From a virus: a DNA stretch of 34,280 bases. The stretch is from positions 1 to 34,280 of the IMG/VR virus record IMGVR_UViG_3300037502_001710. The stretch is one strand, 5' to 3'. Both the position numbers and the translations under genes were made by a program. This document shows, piece by piece, positions 130 to 34,280 of the stretch. The stretch's first letter is position 1. Each line of letters starts with the position of its first letter. A model generated the notes under the pieces. The model was not told the DNA's origin. It was given only the letters and a program-made list of their open reading frames with translations, and did no database searches.

Positions 130-228
130 GGGTCGGCGGCGTGGTGGGAACATGCAATATCTGCATCAGGGATATGGCTCTCCTTAAGGTGCAGAAGCCA
201 ATAGCGGGTTCGAATCCCGCCCGACCTG
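130..228 (+). tRNA. tRNA-like gene, class II (long variable arm), irregular anticodon loop
   Basis: The acceptor stem pairs seven of seven (130-136 GGGTCGG with 221-227 CCGACCT, first pair G-U). The T arm is perfect (stem 204-208/216-220, loop TTCGAAT). The D stem is 3 bp (139-141/153-155), with a GG in its loop. A long variable region at 176-203 contains GGCT/AGCC pairing. The anticodon stem ATATC/GATAT (157-161/171-175) encloses nine bases, TGCATCAGG, instead of seven, so no anticodon can be read with confidence. CAG, GCA and CAT are all present but none sits in a normal U33/purine-37 setting. No CCA is encoded. It could be a divergent Leu/Ser-type tRNA, a degenerate one, or a tRNA mimic. 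Confidence 0.6.
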
Positions 229-264
229 ATTGATAGAGTTTTTGGTAGCCAAGCCGAACGGAAA

Positions 265-292
265 CTCCGGGGCATTTTTTTTATGCGGAGGG
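265..292 (+). promoter_or_regulatory. Hairpin covering the Shine-Dalgarno of the gene at 299
   Basis: GCAT (272-275) pairs with ATGC (283-286) around a loop of seven T. CTCC (265-268) pairs with GGAG (287-290), leaving GGG as a bulge. The GGAG that pairs is the ribosome binding site of the GTG start at 299 (GGAGGG at 287-292). In the folded state the site would be masked, so translation of the small protein could depend on opening the hairpin. This is read directly from the bases; the regulatory role is inference. Confidence 0.35.
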
Positions 293-298
293 TGTGTT

Positions 299-520
299 GT
301 GAAAGCAAAGTTGGTGCATTATCAGCACAAAGACAACGGTTTAGCTTTGTACATTGTTCCGGAATCAGAAATTGAAAGAGCGGTGTTGCGAGCATTCTGG
401 GAACACGGAAAGCTTGAGACGACCAATGGCATTGCGGACAATTCAGAGCAAGGTTTTGCGGTGCGGTGGAGATGTGAACAGGTAGCCAAGCCGGTCGAGT
501 ACGAAGATCGCGGCGGTTGA
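299..520 (+). CDS. Hypothetical small protein, 73 aa, GTG start
   Basis: The start is GTG with GGAGGG six bases upstream; the reading frame is open further upstream but has no ribosome site there. I do not recognise the protein (begins VKAKLVHYQH, ends EYEDRGG). It is mixed in charge, has no membrane segment and one cysteine, and looks like a compact cytoplasmic early phage protein. It lies between two tRNA-like genes, and its ribosome site sits in a possible hairpin. The bases GGTAGCCAAGCCG occur both upstream (244-256) and near its 3' end (480-492), a short direct repeat of unknown meaning. Confidence 0.55.
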   Translation: MKAKLVHYQHKDNGLALYIVPESEIERAVLRAFWEHGKLETTNGIADNSEQGFAVRWRCEQVAKPVEYEDRGG

Positions 521-611
521 TGATCCGCTGTGGGGACAATTTTCGAAGGGTTGAAAGGAGATTGCGATGGGCGTGGAGGTGACAGATGGCGAGTGACGCA
601 GGTTGATCGTT

Positions 612-684
612 TCACCCGTGGTGTAATCCAGGAAACACACTCAGCCGAGGCTGAAAGCTGCGGGTTCAACTCCCGCCGGGTGAA
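612..684 (+). tRNA. tRNA-like gene, 73 nt, six-base anticodon loop
   Basis: The acceptor stem is perfect over seven pairs (612-618 TCACCCG with 677-683 CGGGTGA), followed by discriminator A684. The T arm is perfect (660-664/672-676, loop TTCAACT). U and G occupy positions 8 and 9. The D stem GTGT/ACAC (621-624/635-638) has a ten-base loop with GG. The anticodon arm is one base short: TCAG/CTGA (641-644/651-654) closes the six-base loop CCGAGG, and the outer pair C640-A655 is mismatched. No normal anticodon can be assigned and no CCA is encoded. The rest of the fold is too good for chance, so it is either a genuine divergent tRNA, a decayed one, or a tRNA-shaped RNA with another job. Confidence 0.6.
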
Positions 685-2873: not shown

Positions 2874-3214
2874 GTGACGATTTACTAAAGCGTGCTCGCC
2901 AGTGGGCGGATCGGTTCGGACCATCGAACTGCTGGACGGGCACCAGTGGCGAAGCAGCAACGATCATTCACCATCTGCTGGAACTGATCGAGGCGAAGCA
3001 GGCGGAGGTTGATAGCTTGACTGTCAGGCTGTCAGGGCAACGGTTAGAGGGCACGATTGAGGAGGTGATGATTTATGGGCACGAGATTAGAAGCAGTGAC
3101 GTCTGCGGAGTACGATGCTGCAAGGCGAAGCTACATGGGGTCCCACAGTCTGGAGCGATTCAGGAGGAGCCCGATGGAATTCCAGTTGATGGCGAAGGGG
3201 ATGATTCAAGATAA
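2870..3214 (+). CDS. Hypothetical protein, 114 aa, 3' part overlaps the exonuclease gene
   Basis: It starts at an ATGA overlap with the nuclease gene. The first ~55 residues look like a real small phage protein: a charged helix (LLKRARQWADRFG) and a second helix (ATIIHHLLELIEAKQAEVDSL) suited to a coiled-coil. From about residue 68 the frame overlaps the exonuclease gene by 140 bp, and the composition turns Cys- and Gly-rich and unstructured. The tail is probably read-through of the overlap rather than a folded domain. Function unknown. Confidence 0.55.
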   Translation: MSDDLLKRARQWADRFGPSNCWTGTSGEAATIIHHLLELIEAKQAEVDSLTVRLSGQRLEGTIEEVMIYGHEIRSSDVCGVRCCKAKLHGVPQSGAIQEEPDGIPVDGEGDDSR

Positions 3215-3890
3215 GGACTCCAGCGCGTACGCTTTTGGGCGTGCGTTCCATTGCTGGTTCTTGGAAGGTGAGGCGGAATTCCATCATCGGTACGTGGTGA
3301 GTGAAGGACCGATCAACGAGAAGACGCTAAAGCCTTACGGTCGCGATACGAAAGCGTTTCAGGAGTGGATGGCTGCTAACGTCATGCCGGGTCAGGAGTT
3401 GATTACCGGTGAGGAATTCAGCCGGATACAGCAGATGGCGGAGGCGACGAAGGAGACAGCGGGAATCGAGTATTTCGAGCGAGGACAACCCGAGGTCACG
3501 ATTCGCGGCGACATCTTCGGTGTTGACTGCCAGAGTAGGCTGGACTTTTTGAACGCCACCGAAGGCTACTTCGTGGACGTCAAAACAGATGCCGAGCTCG
3601 ACACCTTCGTCTATCGCTTCGGCAAATTCGGCTATGCTAGGCAGCTTGCGTTTTATCGTGAGATGGTTCGGGCGTTGGGTACTGGTCATGAGTGGTCAGT
3701 ATTCGTTTTGGCCATCGAAAAGGAAATGCCGTTTCGATCGCAGCTTTACAGGGTGATGGACTCAACCTTACTTGCAGCACGGGAAGAAGTGATCCAGGCA
3801 CTGGATCAATACAAGCAGTTGCGACTGCGTGAAGGTGAGTTTGAGTGGCCGATTTCTTTAGTTTATGGGCAGAAAGTGGAGGTGATCTGA
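3075..3890 (+). CDS. RecB-like PD-(D/E)XK exonuclease
   Basis: This 271-residue protein starts at ATG 3075, behind GGAGG at 3061-3065. It carries the RecB/Cas4-type nuclease signature: H59 in FGRAFHCW, E140 in QPEVTIRG, D157 in SRLDFL, D168-x-K170 in FVDVKTD, and the QxxxY motif Q190-LAF-Y194. This matches phage PDDEXK exonucleases (exonuclease VIII-like family) that resect double-stranded ends to give single strands for annealing. The downstream Sak4-type ATPase and DUF669 protein would load on and protect that single-stranded DNA, so the three look like one recombination module. Its stop overlaps the next start (TGATG). Confidence 0.88.
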   Translation: MGTRLEAVTSAEYDAARRSYMGSHSLERFRRSPMEFQLMAKGMIQDKDSSAYAFGRAFHCWFLEGEAEFHHRYVVSEGPINEKTLKPYGRDTKAFQEWMAANVMPGQELITGEEFSRIQQMAEATKETAGIEYFERGQPEVTIRGDIFGVDCQSRLDFLNATEGYFVDVKTDAELDTFVYRFGKFGYARQLAFYREMVRALGTGHEWSVFVLAIEKEMPFRSQLYRVMDSTLLAAREEVIQALDQYKQLRLREGEFEWPISLVYGQKVEVI

Positions 3891-5848: not shown

Positions 5849-6247
5849 ATGGAAGATGAGACGCTCAAGTGGCTGGATACAACCGCAGGCTGGTTAGCGT
5901 CTCGCTTCCGGACTCCAAAGGATGAGGTCTACCAGATGCTGGCGTTGCAGTTGGTATCTGGTCAGCCTCGCAAGTTCGCCCGGCTCCGCGTCATGCGTGA
6001 GCTTGGGCAGTCGGAAAGAGCCCACCAGGGGCCATCGGTTGAACGTGAGGCGGTTGAGATGGGGCAGTCAGTAGCGGAACTGACAGCGGCAGAAGTGCTG
6101 GATGAGCGATCCTGGCTGATTGTCCAGTTGCGGGTACAGCACGGCTACACCGTGAAACAGGTGGCCGATCAGCTTGGGATTTCTCGGCAGCGTGTGGGGC
6201 AAATTTACACACAGGCAATCGAACGATTGAGGGAGGAATTGGGATGA
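5849..6247 (+). CDS. Sigma-70 region 4-like DNA-binding protein
   Basis: This 132-residue protein has CGGAGG before its ATG. Residues 101-131 (TVKQVADQLGISRQRVGQIYTQAIERLREE) are a near-perfect sigma-70 region 4 helix-turn-helix, including the RQRVxQI recognition helix. The N-terminus (residues 10-35, WLASRFRTPKDEVYQMLALQ) faintly recalls the start of sigma region 2, but the core -10-binding region is missing. It could be a reduced sigma factor, an anti-sigma or adaptor for late transcription, or a plain transcription factor. Its place in the early block would suit control of the leftward late operon. Confidence 0.78.
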   Translation: MEDETLKWLDTTAGWLASRFRTPKDEVYQMLALQLVSGQPRKFARLRVMRELGQSERAHQGPSVEREAVEMGQSVAELTAAEVLDERSWLIVQLRVQHGYTVKQVADQLGISRQRVGQIYTQAIERLREELG

Positions 6248-9649: not shown

Positions 9650-11787
9650 ACCTTGGCAGCATACCGAAAGAGCTATTAGACCAGCCGAACTGGGTTCGCT
9701 GGTGGTACACACCAGACGGAAAAAAGATGTTTGCTGGCAAGTCCAACACGCCATCGACCTGGCACACGATCGACGACCTGGCCGGCGCGGAAAGAGTGGC
9801 TTTCGTCATTCCGGAAGCTGGCCATTATGTAGGCGTCGATCTGGACGATGTTATCGGGCTGGATGGCGTGATGAGCGATGAGGCTAGCGAGATACTGAAC
9901 CGCTTCATCGGTGTCGCCTACGCTGAGCTATCGCCATCTGGTAGCGGTTTCAAGCTGATCACCAGGGGACGCAAGCCGGATTGGGCGAAATGTGAATTTG
10001 AGACCTGGCTGGAGTGCTACGATCATAACCGTTTCTGGTGTATGACGGGCAGACCAGTAGATCCCAGCGAAGCGGACTGGATGGAAATCGGCGACGGTCA
10101 GGAGGCGATCGATTGGCTTTGCGATAAGTACCTGAGACCATCCCAGCATGTAAAGCGACCAAAGCAGATTCAGGTGGTCACAACGGAACCGGCCAGCGGA
10201 TCGCTGATCGAACGCGCCGAGGCTTACGTAGCAGCGTACCCGCCAAGCCTAGAAGGTGGCCGCAACAACGCAGCGTTCAAGCTAGCCGGTCATTTGTTCG
10301 CCATTGACCACTACGGCGAACGGCTGACGGTGGACCAGTGCTTCCACCTTGTTTGGGCGTGGAACTGTGGACTACCAAACCCGCTAGATGAAGTGGAAAT
10401 CCGATCAACTGTGGAATCGAGCAGTCGGAACGGTACACCGATGGAAACCAAGCCAGCAACCTCAAGGGCTGTCACGGTTGCTAGGGTGCTGTCTAGTGAC
10501 GATGAGATTCAGCCATCGCTGAACGATCTGATCGAGGGAGTTAAGGACGCCCACACAGCAGGATGGCCAGCACGATTGATGCGACCACCGGGATTCATGG
10601 GCGAGGTCGTAGACTTCATCCAACAGCAGAACCCTCGGCCATCTGCAATTCTTGCCCTCCCTGCTGCGATCGCTCTACAGGCTACGCTTTTGGGCAACAA
10701 GTGGCGGGACAAATCGGGCAATCGTGCGAACCTTTACCTCATCGCAGTCGCTCCACCTGGTGCGGGAAAAGCGGCACCGATCAGAGTTGTCCAAGATGTA
10801 CTTACCGCGGCGGGTGCTGAGGAACTGTGGGGAGGTAAGCCGTCGAGTGACTCGGCCATGGCATCGGATATGCGGGTCAAGAGCACCAAGCTCTACGTTT
10901 GGGATGAGTTCGGAAAGTTCCTACAGAAAACCAAAATGACCAGCGGAGGATCCGCCACACTCAACACCATTCAAGATGCAATGCTTGAGCTGTGGTCGAT
11001 CAATGGCGGAACCTGGAAGCAGAAGAGCTATTCTGATTCCAAGCTAAACAAACAAGTTGATGATCCTTGCATGTTGCTACATGGATCGACCACACCGGGA
11101 ACCCTGTGGGCTGGGTTCGATGAGTCGAATCTGCTCGACGGTTTGTGCGCTCGCTTATTGATCTTCCAAGAGCACCAGTACGGACCACTCCAGGAAACGG
11201 AGCAACAAGCCCCTCCGGAGTCGGTTATCCAGCAGGCTAGGTACTGGGTTCACTGCAAGCACCACGATGGCAACCTGCCAGAGCTAAACGCTGGCTGTCG
11301 GGTGATCCCTGAAACGGAGAACGCTCGGCAATACTTCCGCGAAATGGCTGGGCTGATGGAGGATAACCTACACGATGAAGCGGCAGCGGCACAATGGGCG
11401 AGGTCCAGCGAGAAGGCCCGCAGATTGGCTATCTGCTACGCTTGCAGCCGGGACTACCTAGCACCCGTCATCGATGACGAAGCGGCTCAGTGGGCCTGCG
11501 ATGTGGTCAGAATCGCCACTCAGCAATTCCTCAAGGCGGCGCGGTCAGAGATTACCGGGAGTGACTGGCAAGCGGTCAGATGGAAGAAGATACTTTCATA
11601 CATCAAGAGCGAAACGAAGCGCCTGCAGCCGGTTAGTAGATCGTCACTGCTTAGAAAATTCCATCTGCCCGCGTCTGAGATGGAGAAGATACTGAACGCC
11701 TTGGCCGAGGCACGGGAGATTGAGGCTGTCGCTGTCGCTGATCCCCGGCCAGGTCGCCCTGGGACGTACTACCGGGCGATGGGATAA
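9646..11787 (+). CDS. PrimPol-like primase fused to a DUF3987-type ATPase/helicase
   Basis: This 713-residue protein begins with a primase-polymerase region. Catalytic DLD (65-67) in YVGVDLDDVIG, then ELSPSGSGFKLITRG, then YDHNRFWCMTGRP match motifs I-III of phage PrimPols of the NrS-1 style. Residues about 185-265 resemble the helical linker after such domains. From about 285 an ATPase region follows: APPGAGKAAP (369-378), a Walker A without the usual Ser/Thr, and YVWDEFGKF as Walker B near 418-421. The enzyme would prime and unwind phage DNA. Its 3' end overlaps the converging late gene by 137 bp. Roles are assigned by motif only. Confidence 0.85.
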   Translation: MNLGSIPKELLDQPNWVRWWYTPDGKKMFAGKSNTPSTWHTIDDLAGAERVAFVIPEAGHYVGVDLDDVIGLDGVMSDEASEILNRFIGVAYAELSPSGSGFKLITRGRKPDWAKCEFETWLECYDHNRFWCMTGRPVDPSEADWMEIGDGQEAIDWLCDKYLRPSQHVKRPKQIQVVTTEPASGSLIERAEAYVAAYPPSLEGGRNNAAFKLAGHLFAIDHYGERLTVDQCFHLVWAWNCGLPNPLDEVEIRSTVESSSRNGTPMETKPATSRAVTVARVLSSDDEIQPSLNDLIEGVKDAHTAGWPARLMRPPGFMGEVVDFIQQQNPRPSAILALPAAIALQATLLGNKWRDKSGNRANLYLIAVAPPGAGKAAPIRVVQDVLTAAGAEELWGGKPSSDSAMASDMRVKSTKLYVWDEFGKFLQKTKMTSGGSATLNTIQDAMLELWSINGGTWKQKSYSDSKLNKQVDDPCMLLHGSTTPGTLWAGFDESNLLDGLCARLLIFQEHQYGPLQETEQQAPPESVIQQARYWVHCKHHDGNLPELNAGCRVIPETENARQYFREMAGLMEDNLHDEAAAAQWARSSEKARRLAICYACSRDYLAPVIDDEAAQWACDVVRIATQQFLKAARSEITGSDWQAVRWKKILSYIKSETKRLQPVSRSSLLRKFHLPASEMEKILNALAEAREIEAVAVADPRPGRPGTYYRAMG

Positions 11788-31784: not shown

Positions 31785-32036
31785 TTACTCCGCCTTCGGA
31801 TGCAGTTGGTTGACTCTTTCTTCCAACCTGGCGACCGATTGATTTAGCTTCAGCCGATCCTCGTAGCATTCGTCAGACTGTTGAGCGCACTTCTCCAAGT
31901 CCTTCCGCATGTCCTCGATCTGCTTCGCGTTGCGTGTCTCCTGATGCTTCCAGAGTGCAGCAACAGCCCCGGCCATCGCAGCGACAACGGGACCAACGTA
32001 TAAAGCGATTTCGCTTGCCATGCTTTTGCTGCTCAT
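31785..32036 (-). CDS. Small membrane coiled-coil protein (holin-like or lysis accessory)
   Basis: This 83-residue protein starts at an ATGA overlap with the peptidase stop. Residues about 9-28 (IALYVGPVVAAMAGAVAALW) are one transmembrane segment, followed by a charged coiled-coil (residues 38-80, MRKDLEKCAQQSDECYEDRLKL...). One transmembrane segment with a long coiled-coil tail resembles small phage lysis proteins, such as XhlA-like or antiholin partners, although in XhlA the order is reversed. Its place after a peptidase gene supports a lysis role. Confidence 0.55.
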   Translation of the reverse strand: MSSKSMASEIALYVGPVVAAMAGAVAALWKHQETRNAKQIEDMRKDLEKCAQQSDECYEDRLKLNQSVARLEERVNQLHPKAE

Positions 32037-33064
32037 TCAATCACGATCAGAGGAGGGGAGTCTGGGAGGTCGATTTCTTCAAGGGTCATCACGGTTGGGA
32101 GCTTGGCTTTGTACCACCTCTCAAGCTCCTCGGCTGGGATGTTGTACATCGCTTTACCGCCCCAACTAGTATTGTTGAGGATAAAATAGAGCTTGCCGGA
32201 GCGGTCGTAGAAATGACCACTCCAACCCATGTTGTGAGCCCATCGGTTATTCGGATCGCGGCCATGGATCGGGAATCCATCTGGGTGGTCACCAATCTTG
32301 CGAATCGCAACCATGCTACACATGAAAGCAGTCTTCATCTGCTTGCTGGCTTCCAGATGTTGATCGACTGATTCAATCTTGACGGATGCCAATAGGCGGT
32401 GGTCGCAGAACTGGCGAAGCTCTTCGATGAATTGCCAATTGCCAAACGCCCTGTAAAGCGATGGCTTGCCGATCGGCTCAGGTAGCATCCGCTCGCCATC
32501 AGCTCCCTGGCTCTTCAGGATCTCCAATAGTTTCGGGGTGCCGCAATCCAAGACCCCATCCTTCATAAGCGATTCCGCCATTGGCTCGCAGTACAGCCCG
32601 TCGCTTCCCCGCATGTTTGCACGCTTTCGAGCCATTCCGTAAGACTGCGGCGCGTAAGGGGCGATCGAATCTACGCCAAACTCCGCTCGGCCAAGATACT
32701 CCTCGGCGTCTCCCCTTGCTGCGATCTGTGCAATCGCTCGCTGTACCCAGACGCGAAAGGTGTTCGATGCAACGCATGAGCCGATGTCCTGCGGTAGCCA
32801 ATTGTACTTGCGGCCTACGGTGATTTCTTCCAGCGTGTTGAGGCACATCGAGTTGTCAGCCATGCCCTTGCGGGCCATCGCTTCAACCCATCGCCTGCGG
32901 ATCCCGGGAAGGATGTCGTTGTTTGTTGGCCGGCTTCGATACGCGACCGGCATATCAGCAGCGGCGCGTTCGTAGGTTTCGTTCTCAACCCGGATCATCT
33001 CCGCTTCGGTCAGGGTGCCATCACCCCAACCCATCGGGCCGATTGCGTGTTCTAATCCGCTCAT
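32033..33064 (-). CDS. Papain-like cysteine peptidase
   Basis: The 343 residues contain a papain-like set in order: Q92 and C97 in LPQDIGSCVASNTF, then H277 (or H284) in WAHNMGWSGHF, and N297/N298 with SWG (300-302) in YFILNNTSWGG. This is the Gln-Cys-His-Asn arrangement of C1-type peptidases. No signal peptide is visible. The neighbours are a secreted protein and a membrane coiled-coil protein, so a role in host envelope breakdown or as a virion-linked peptidase is plausible, but neither is shown. The His assignment is the least sure. Confidence 0.68.
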   Translation of the reverse strand: MSGLEHAIGPMGWGDGTLTEAEMIRVENETYERAAADMPVAYRSRPTNNDILPGIRRRWVEAMARKGMADNSMCLNTLEEITVGRKYNWLPQDIGSCVASNTFRVWVQRAIAQIAARGDAEEYLGRAEFGVDSIAPYAPQSYGMARKRANMRGSDGLYCEPMAESLMKDGVLDCGTPKLLEILKSQGADGERMLPEPIGKPSLYRAFGNWQFIEELRQFCDHRLLASVKIESVDQHLEASKQMKTAFMCSMVAIRKIGDHPDGFPIHGRDPNNRWAHNMGWSGHFYDRSGKLYFILNNTSWGGKAMYNIPAEELERWYKAKLPTVMTLEEIDLPDSPPLIVIE

Positions 33065-34158: not shown

Positions 34159-34280
34159 AAGCAGATCCTCCTACAGGACATAAAGCAGGGAACCGTGCCA
34201 AAGTGACAACAAAATTCCGAAAAGAATTCGAAAATTTTTCCAGCGGGAACTAAAGCAATAAAATTTCGCGTGTTTATGGC
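34159..34280. promoter_or_regulatory. AT-rich leader upstream of the late operon
   Basis: These 122 bases carry no gene. On the - strand they precede the first late gene, ending in AGGAGGATC and eight bases to its ATG. They include AAAATT/AATTTT, the repeat TTCCGAAAA-GAATTCGAAAA and a long A/T stretch, as in promoters or replication origins. No clear -35/-10 pair could be fixed. A sigma-54-like TGGCACG is present but its spacing is one base too long. Confidence 0.4.

Follow-up and report, generated by a model that had tools for sequence, protein, structure and literature searches.

The window, that is, the whole 34,280-nt stretch of phage DNA analysed here, carries two tRNA-like elements on the + strand, at positions 130–228 (element 1) and 612–684 (element 2). 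Both had been proposed in a preliminary description of the sequence and were confirmed by fold prediction and by a scan for acceptor stems and T arms; Rfam and ARAGORN additionally picked out element 2. Directly upstream of element 1 lies a conserved phage motif, GAACGCCGG...TAGGCGTGACAGCCGGAGAGACGGC (86–127, + strand; also given as GAACGCCGG...GGCGTGACAGCCGGAGAGACGGC), which has no match in Rfam. Its core, CGTGACAGCCGGAGAGACGGC, recurs with 0–2 changes in phages of Pseudomonas, Morganella, Providencia, Stenotrophomonas and Bradyrhizobium and in one uncultured phage, often a short way upstream of a gene. Element 1 is followed by a small ORF of 73 aa (299–520, + strand) with a GTG start preceded by GGAGG, and element 2, after 34–40 nt, by a 126-aa ORF (718–1098, + strand) beginning at GTG 718 or ATG 724; neither product has a Pfam match. 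The orthologue of the latter ORF in contig G001 likewise follows its element. A NUMOD4/HNH homing-type endonuclease gene (1412–1972) comes soon after the two elements; contig L003 has a similar gene behind its own element. Positions 5849–6247 encode a protein resembling sigma-70 region 4, which may regulate phage transcription. The right end of the window (position 34280) lies close to the point where the contigs behind L022, L023 and L025 also end, about 1216–1223 bp beyond the gene at 32033–33064, suggesting either a real genome end or a shared assembly break.

As first described, the acceptor stems and T arms of both elements are intact, and predicted folds also contain the D arms. In element 1, 130–136 form seven pairs with 221–227 (including a G130-U227 wobble; pair 3-70 is G-C), the D arm occupies approximately 139–155, and the T arm (204–220) has five of five pairs and a TTCRANN loop; the discriminator position is G228 and CCA is not encoded. 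The nine-base anticodon loop reported for this element was a misreading. The minimum free energy fold instead contains a central hairpin of 13 bp with a 2-nt bulge (160–195, + strand), standing where the anticodon and variable arms would be. This fold has an energy of −41.3 kcal/mol, compared to −26.9 kcal/mol for a 5-bp anticodon stem with a 9-nt loop, a cost of 14.4, and the pairing probability of the central hairpin (CUGCAUC/GGUGCAG) is 0.998, against 0.002 for the anticodon stem with the 9-nt loop. A 7-nt loop, GCAUCAG, formed through a U-G closing pair was also considered and rejected; it reaches only −29.5 kcal/mol, compared with the −41.3 of the best fold, and has no U33. Element 1 has no match to the Rfam tRNA family (RF00005) up to E = 1.

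Element 2 has seven acceptor pairs between 612–618 and 677–683 (pair 3-70 is A-U), a D arm at 621–638 and a T arm at 660–676 with five of five pairs and a TTCRANN loop; the discriminator is A684, again with no encoded CCA. It scores 43.9 bits against RF00005 (gathering cut-off 29), and ARAGORN calls it "tRNA-???" with a 2-base anticodon. The six-base loop originally assigned to it, CCGAGG, does not stand up, as its outer C and G pair and leave a CGAG tetraloop on a 5-bp stem (UCAGC-CGAG-GCUGA, 641–654, + strand). This hairpin occupies the place of the anticodon arm, and both the stem and the 4-nt loop are kept in orthologues. Folding of element 2 yielded no 5-bp stem capped by seven loop bases that include U33. 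Rather than carrying loops changed in opposite directions, both window elements are without an anticodon arm. Alternative pairings towards a normal anticodon were rejected on folding energies, and in neither element does a 5-bp stem carrying seven loop bases and U33 fold well, which argues against the suggestion that they are very divergent working tRNAs. As modelled by folding, both elements possess the acceptor and T arms of a functional tRNA but lack its anticodon loop.

Related elements turned up in eight IMG/VR contigs, collected by searches at the level of proteins, DNA patterns and contigs. When the window and seven of these eight contigs were scanned for perfect acceptor stems accompanied by a T arm, 14 elements were recovered, compared to 0–2 per Markov-shuffled set (mean 0.3). 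As G003 and G005 hardly differ from each other, the 14 correspond to about 12 distinct elements of 45–129 nt. They fall into at least five sequence classes separated by their acceptors: class A, which includes element 1 (GGGTCGG or AGGTCGG, 45–129 nt), class B (GGATCGG, 116 nt), class C, which includes element 2 (TCACCCG, 72–73 nt), class D (GGGGATG, 102 nt) and class E (66 nt, with an 8-nt T loop, found by pattern). The acceptor and T stems are constant, while the centre between these parts spans 14 to 98 nt. In this set, which we refer to as the planctomycete-phage set (see below for the host), the D arm and elbow are usually retained, and the anticodon arm has given way to a short tetraloop hairpin or a long hairpin, or is simply missing. 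Class B retains a four-way junction with two non-tRNA arms; in the 45-nt class A member of G002, the anticodon arm is absent altogether. The favoured folds of all elements of the set lack an ordinary anticodon arm, so that the window elements are not lone decayed copies among relatives with normal anticodons.

ARAGORN found no ordinary tRNA in the window and the seven related contigs, and missed every element in the latter. Rfam returned only tRNA plus sub-threshold matches to known RNAs, the class E pattern has no match in GTDB genomes, and searches of published phages and plasmids gave no relative of either window element at the DNA level. tRNA introns were rejected, as the flanks of the inserts rebuild no normal anticodon stem (classes A, B, C and E, by inspection; class D is less settled). 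We conclude that anticodon-less tRNA-like RNAs very probably form a real class in planctomycete-related phages.

Sequence comparison of class A shows that the T arm and 3' acceptor strand, GCGGGTTCGAATCCCGCCCGACCTG (204–228, + strand in element 1), is almost unchanged across all relatives and also recurs as intergenic 3' remnants. Partial class A 3' halves follow AACAAGCGTTATACAG-like sequence at L002:1028-1054, 1797-1812 and 2295-2325, L003:8385-8442, and L005:2280-2310, 3170-3230 and 3830-3860. Such 3'-half repeats sit between small genes, as if cassettes had been swapped there, and some of the AACAAGCGTTATAC repeats resemble, by eye only, integron-type attC core sites. Visual inspection of L003 also revealed a mini tRNA-like element (9972-10018) composed of CGAGCT, GGGTCAAGGCCC, the T arm GGCGG-TTCAAGT-CCGCC and GGCTCG.

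The replaced arm of class C reads UCAGC-CGAG-GCUGA, UCGGC-GAAA-GUCGA, UCAGC-CUCG-GCUGA and UCGGGC-GAUC-GCUCGA in four phages. Its stem is paired in all four, with changes on both sides in two of the five pairs, and its loop drifts (CGAG/GAAA/CUCG/GAUC). In class E, GNRA tetraloops (GCGA, GCAA) cap a stem in which a G-C pair is exchanged for A-U, and one pair of the D stem changes from G-C to C-G between relatives. Paired cells account for 92.7% and 98.3% in classes C and E, respectively, against 33–51% in slid controls; the covariation score was matched by 16 and 63 of 500 shuffles, a weak control with 3–4 sequences in each class. In class A, the acceptor and T arm are so nearly identical across phages that structural covariation cannot show, and only pair 1-72 varies. 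The acceptor is not always constrained, because two class C relatives have it damaged, G002 by a 3-nt insertion and G003 by several unpaired positions. Judging from these sequence comparisons, selection in classes C and E appears to act on shape and not on decoding.

A block of 26 bases that lies shortly before element 1 matches Pseudomonas phage Itty13 and brought a second set to light. This phage has an 880-bp gap without annotated genes (L090:1456-2337) that contains at least one tRNA-like element; further T-arm-like pieces are visible in the gap, parts of which are common to other phages. The Itty13 element has relatives at 19 IMG/VR loci and in two further phages, Shamal and Haboob. The Pseudomonas element is intergenic and combines tRNA D and T arms with a replaced central arm; its acceptor helix is lengthened to 11 bp and surrounded by an outer helix, and it scores 42–43 bits against Rfam tRNA in Shamal and Haboob. 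Eight pairs show both-side changes and 99.5% of cells are paired, with none of 500 shuffles equalling the observed pairing or covariation. Kinship with the window elements is not claimed, because no sequence homology was detected beyond the upstream 26-base block; the Pseudomonas and planctomycete-phage sets have one design in common.

Terminase relatives in species genomes, mostly at 41–48% identity, come chiefly from Planctomycetota MAGs; Victivallaceae and a few further groups account for the others. From this we infer that the phages of the window set probably have a planctomycete host. CCA is encoded in 0/30 planctomycete tRNAs sampled (a few rows of this table were mis-oriented, and separate inspection of planctomycete tRNAs was concordant) and in none of the phage elements. 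Its lack in the latter is therefore to be expected and is no sign of decay, and the same 3' processing route could apply.

Most planctomycete-phage elements, ten of them, start 3–8 nt past a stop codon. The next start codon lies 34–49 nt downstream of many elements, with a Shine-Dalgarno-like sequence, and 57–84 nt downstream of others; class E elements lie ~105 nt after the preceding gene. All are on the same strand as the early-operon genes. In several contigs, classes E and B are placed before, and A or C after, a small gene ending in ...PPTVE.

We tentatively suggest that the elements act in cis within early operons, as signals for processing or punctuation that enlist host tRNA-maturation enzymes. 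The acceptor/T-arm helix is the part of a tRNA bound by RNase P, RNase Z and the CCA-adding enzyme. Transcribed within a polycistronic early mRNA, the acceptor/T-arm body would be recognised by these enzymes and cut on its 5' side by RNase P and on its 3' side by RNase Z or exonucleases, perhaps with participation of the CCA-adding enzyme. The cuts would fall after the upstream stop codon and about 35–50 nt before the next start, separating the early mRNAs and fixing their ends, presumably to the benefit of the phage. We favour punctuation because the acceptor/T helix is constant and is located between a stop and the next start, and the anatomy, the loss of the decoding part, the compensatory evolution and the intergenic co-directional placement all speak for it. 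The Pseudomonas element, unrelated yet built on the same plan, also counts in its favour. In the predicted folds, both window elements form a 12-bp stacked acceptor/T helix with an unpaired 5' leader. The RNase P step is plausible because this enzyme processes several phage and mRNA substrates, namely phage M3 RNA, the phage-derived C4 antisense RNA and mRNAs (reviewed in PMC11143913). At the same time, the damaged class C acceptors, the near-invariant class A sequences, the covariation counts from just 3–4 sequences, the 57–84-nt gaps and the ~105-nt spacing of class E count against punctuation, as do the non-tRNA domains found inside the outer helix in related Pseudomonas phages. Further caution is required because the extended acceptor of the Pseudomonas elements, which do not show the stacked 12-bp helix with an unpaired 5' leader, is unusual for a substrate of RNase P or RNase Z.

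The elements had initially been suggested as possible tRNA mimics, which holds in the sense of a tRNA body without its decoding part. They are unlikely to be decoys for anticodon nucleases, as such nucleases require an anticodon loop, and this target is missing or replaced by hairpins and tetraloops. Decoys for elbow- or acceptor-binding enzymes are possible: processed small RNAs would act in trans, titrating host enzymes or toxins that recognise the elbow or acceptor of a tRNA, such as tRNA modification enzymes or toxins that modify the acceptor end. The elbow features of several elements (GG in D loops, a TTCRA T loop) and the presence of several elements per genome agree with this, but D arms, central arms and acceptor sequences differ wholly between classes, the 45-nt member has no tRNA body, and placement is bound to gene boundaries, making such an action in trans unlikely overall. 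An improbable explanation, too, is that of uncut cis-acting leaders or inter-gene stabilisers, with the tRNA-like fold protecting or regulating the downstream mRNA. Elements do lie upstream of start codons, those of Pseudomonas phages have a long closed outer helix with interchangeable inner domains, and the yjdF riboswitch offers a precedent of a tRNA-like fold that regulates translation (PMC9142559). However, the constant part of the planctomycete-phage elements is exactly the acceptor/T domain, and elements are also found 3–8 nt after stop codons.

Very unlikely, in our opinion, is a role as recombination modules, where tRNA 3' halves would provide attachment or homology sites for cassette swaps and the RNA fold would be a by-product. 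While contigs that are otherwise unrelated share class A 3' halves and partial 3' remnants (AACAAGCGTTATACAGAG...TCCCGCCCGACCTGATT) in the gaps between their genes, the nine contigs, which may be incomplete, contain no tyrosine integrase, G004 alone has a serine recombinase, the 3' half was not found in 392 genomes of the phylum nor in 17 genomes with related terminases, and the conserved 5' acceptor strands and the compensatory changes of classes C and E would be left unexplained. An integrase attachment site in a host tRNA was likewise disfavoured, with no tyrosine integrase and no host tRNA match. Finally, it is scarcely credible that these are decaying, functionless tRNA genes captured long ago, for although their bodies resemble ordinary tRNAs (as inferred from D-arm sequences) and some copies have damaged acceptors, about 12 distinct elements have kept intact acceptor and T stems while their anticodon arm is always altered, and the replacement stems covary, in line with the initial remark that simple decay is hard to see here.

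Canonical phage tRNAs, among them ones whose anticodon loops are altered (van den Berg 2023, PMC10264068), are similar to the window elements in phage location, cloverleaf and intact acceptor and T arms, but have a usable anticodon with single loop bases changed, whereas here the arm is gone or replaced. Rfam detected no tmRNA in the window and only sub-threshold matches in L003 (13.5 and 15.5 bits versus a gathering score of 47), and no match to phage C4 antisense RNA. The tRNA-like domain of tmRNA has an acceptor and a T arm, with a non-decoding helix for the anticodon arm, and the window elements are alike in this; unlike tmRNA, they are without the G3-U70 alanine signal, have no identified tag reading frame and are far smaller. 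Mitochondrial transcripts contain tRNA-shaped units between genes that define mRNA ends, and armless variants exist; those units are mostly working tRNAs, whereas none of the elements here appears able to decode and their processing is a prediction. Bacterial Y RNA has a tRNA-like module with a non-translational role, and M3 and C4 are, to our knowledge, single known RNAs without a cloverleaf with a replaced arm. Phage phi80 M3 RNA, C4 antisense RNA and RNase P-cut mRNAs are pieces of phage RNA or mRNA cut by a tRNA-maturation enzyme (PMC11143913), and it is in this that we propose a likeness. The Y RNA module and the yjdF riboswitch (PMC9142559) are likewise tRNA-like folds with non-translational roles, with no sequence or Rfam relationship to the phage elements detected. 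Among open-licence papers, we came upon no account of non-decoding tRNA bodies that form a set and have interchangeable centres.

When tRNA-like sequences of phages are not overlooked, they are usually catalogued as odd or decayed tRNAs. If the anticodon-less class is under selection, a part of phage "tRNA" content would serve mRNA processing or another non-decoding role. It may be, although we regard this broader view as rather doubtful, that phages of distant hosts employ the acceptor/T body as a scaffold for non-decoding modules with swappable centres, spread between early genes, and hijack host tRNA maturation to shape mRNAs or present a stable centre. Whether phage "tRNA" content has a non-decoding role can be tested, since Pseudomonas, which can be cultured, is host to three phages with similar elements (Shamal, Haboob and Itty13).

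Variants of the Pseudomonas element differ in what the outer helix encloses. R656, Ab31 and PAE2 have the same outer helix around a different, non-tRNA inner domain, and across L091, L092, L114, L115 and L117, a constant outer helix (GCUGUAUCGG...CCAUACAGC) surrounds swapped inner domains, tRNA-like or not. The 3' part of this outer-helix element is also present near cI in PAJU2.
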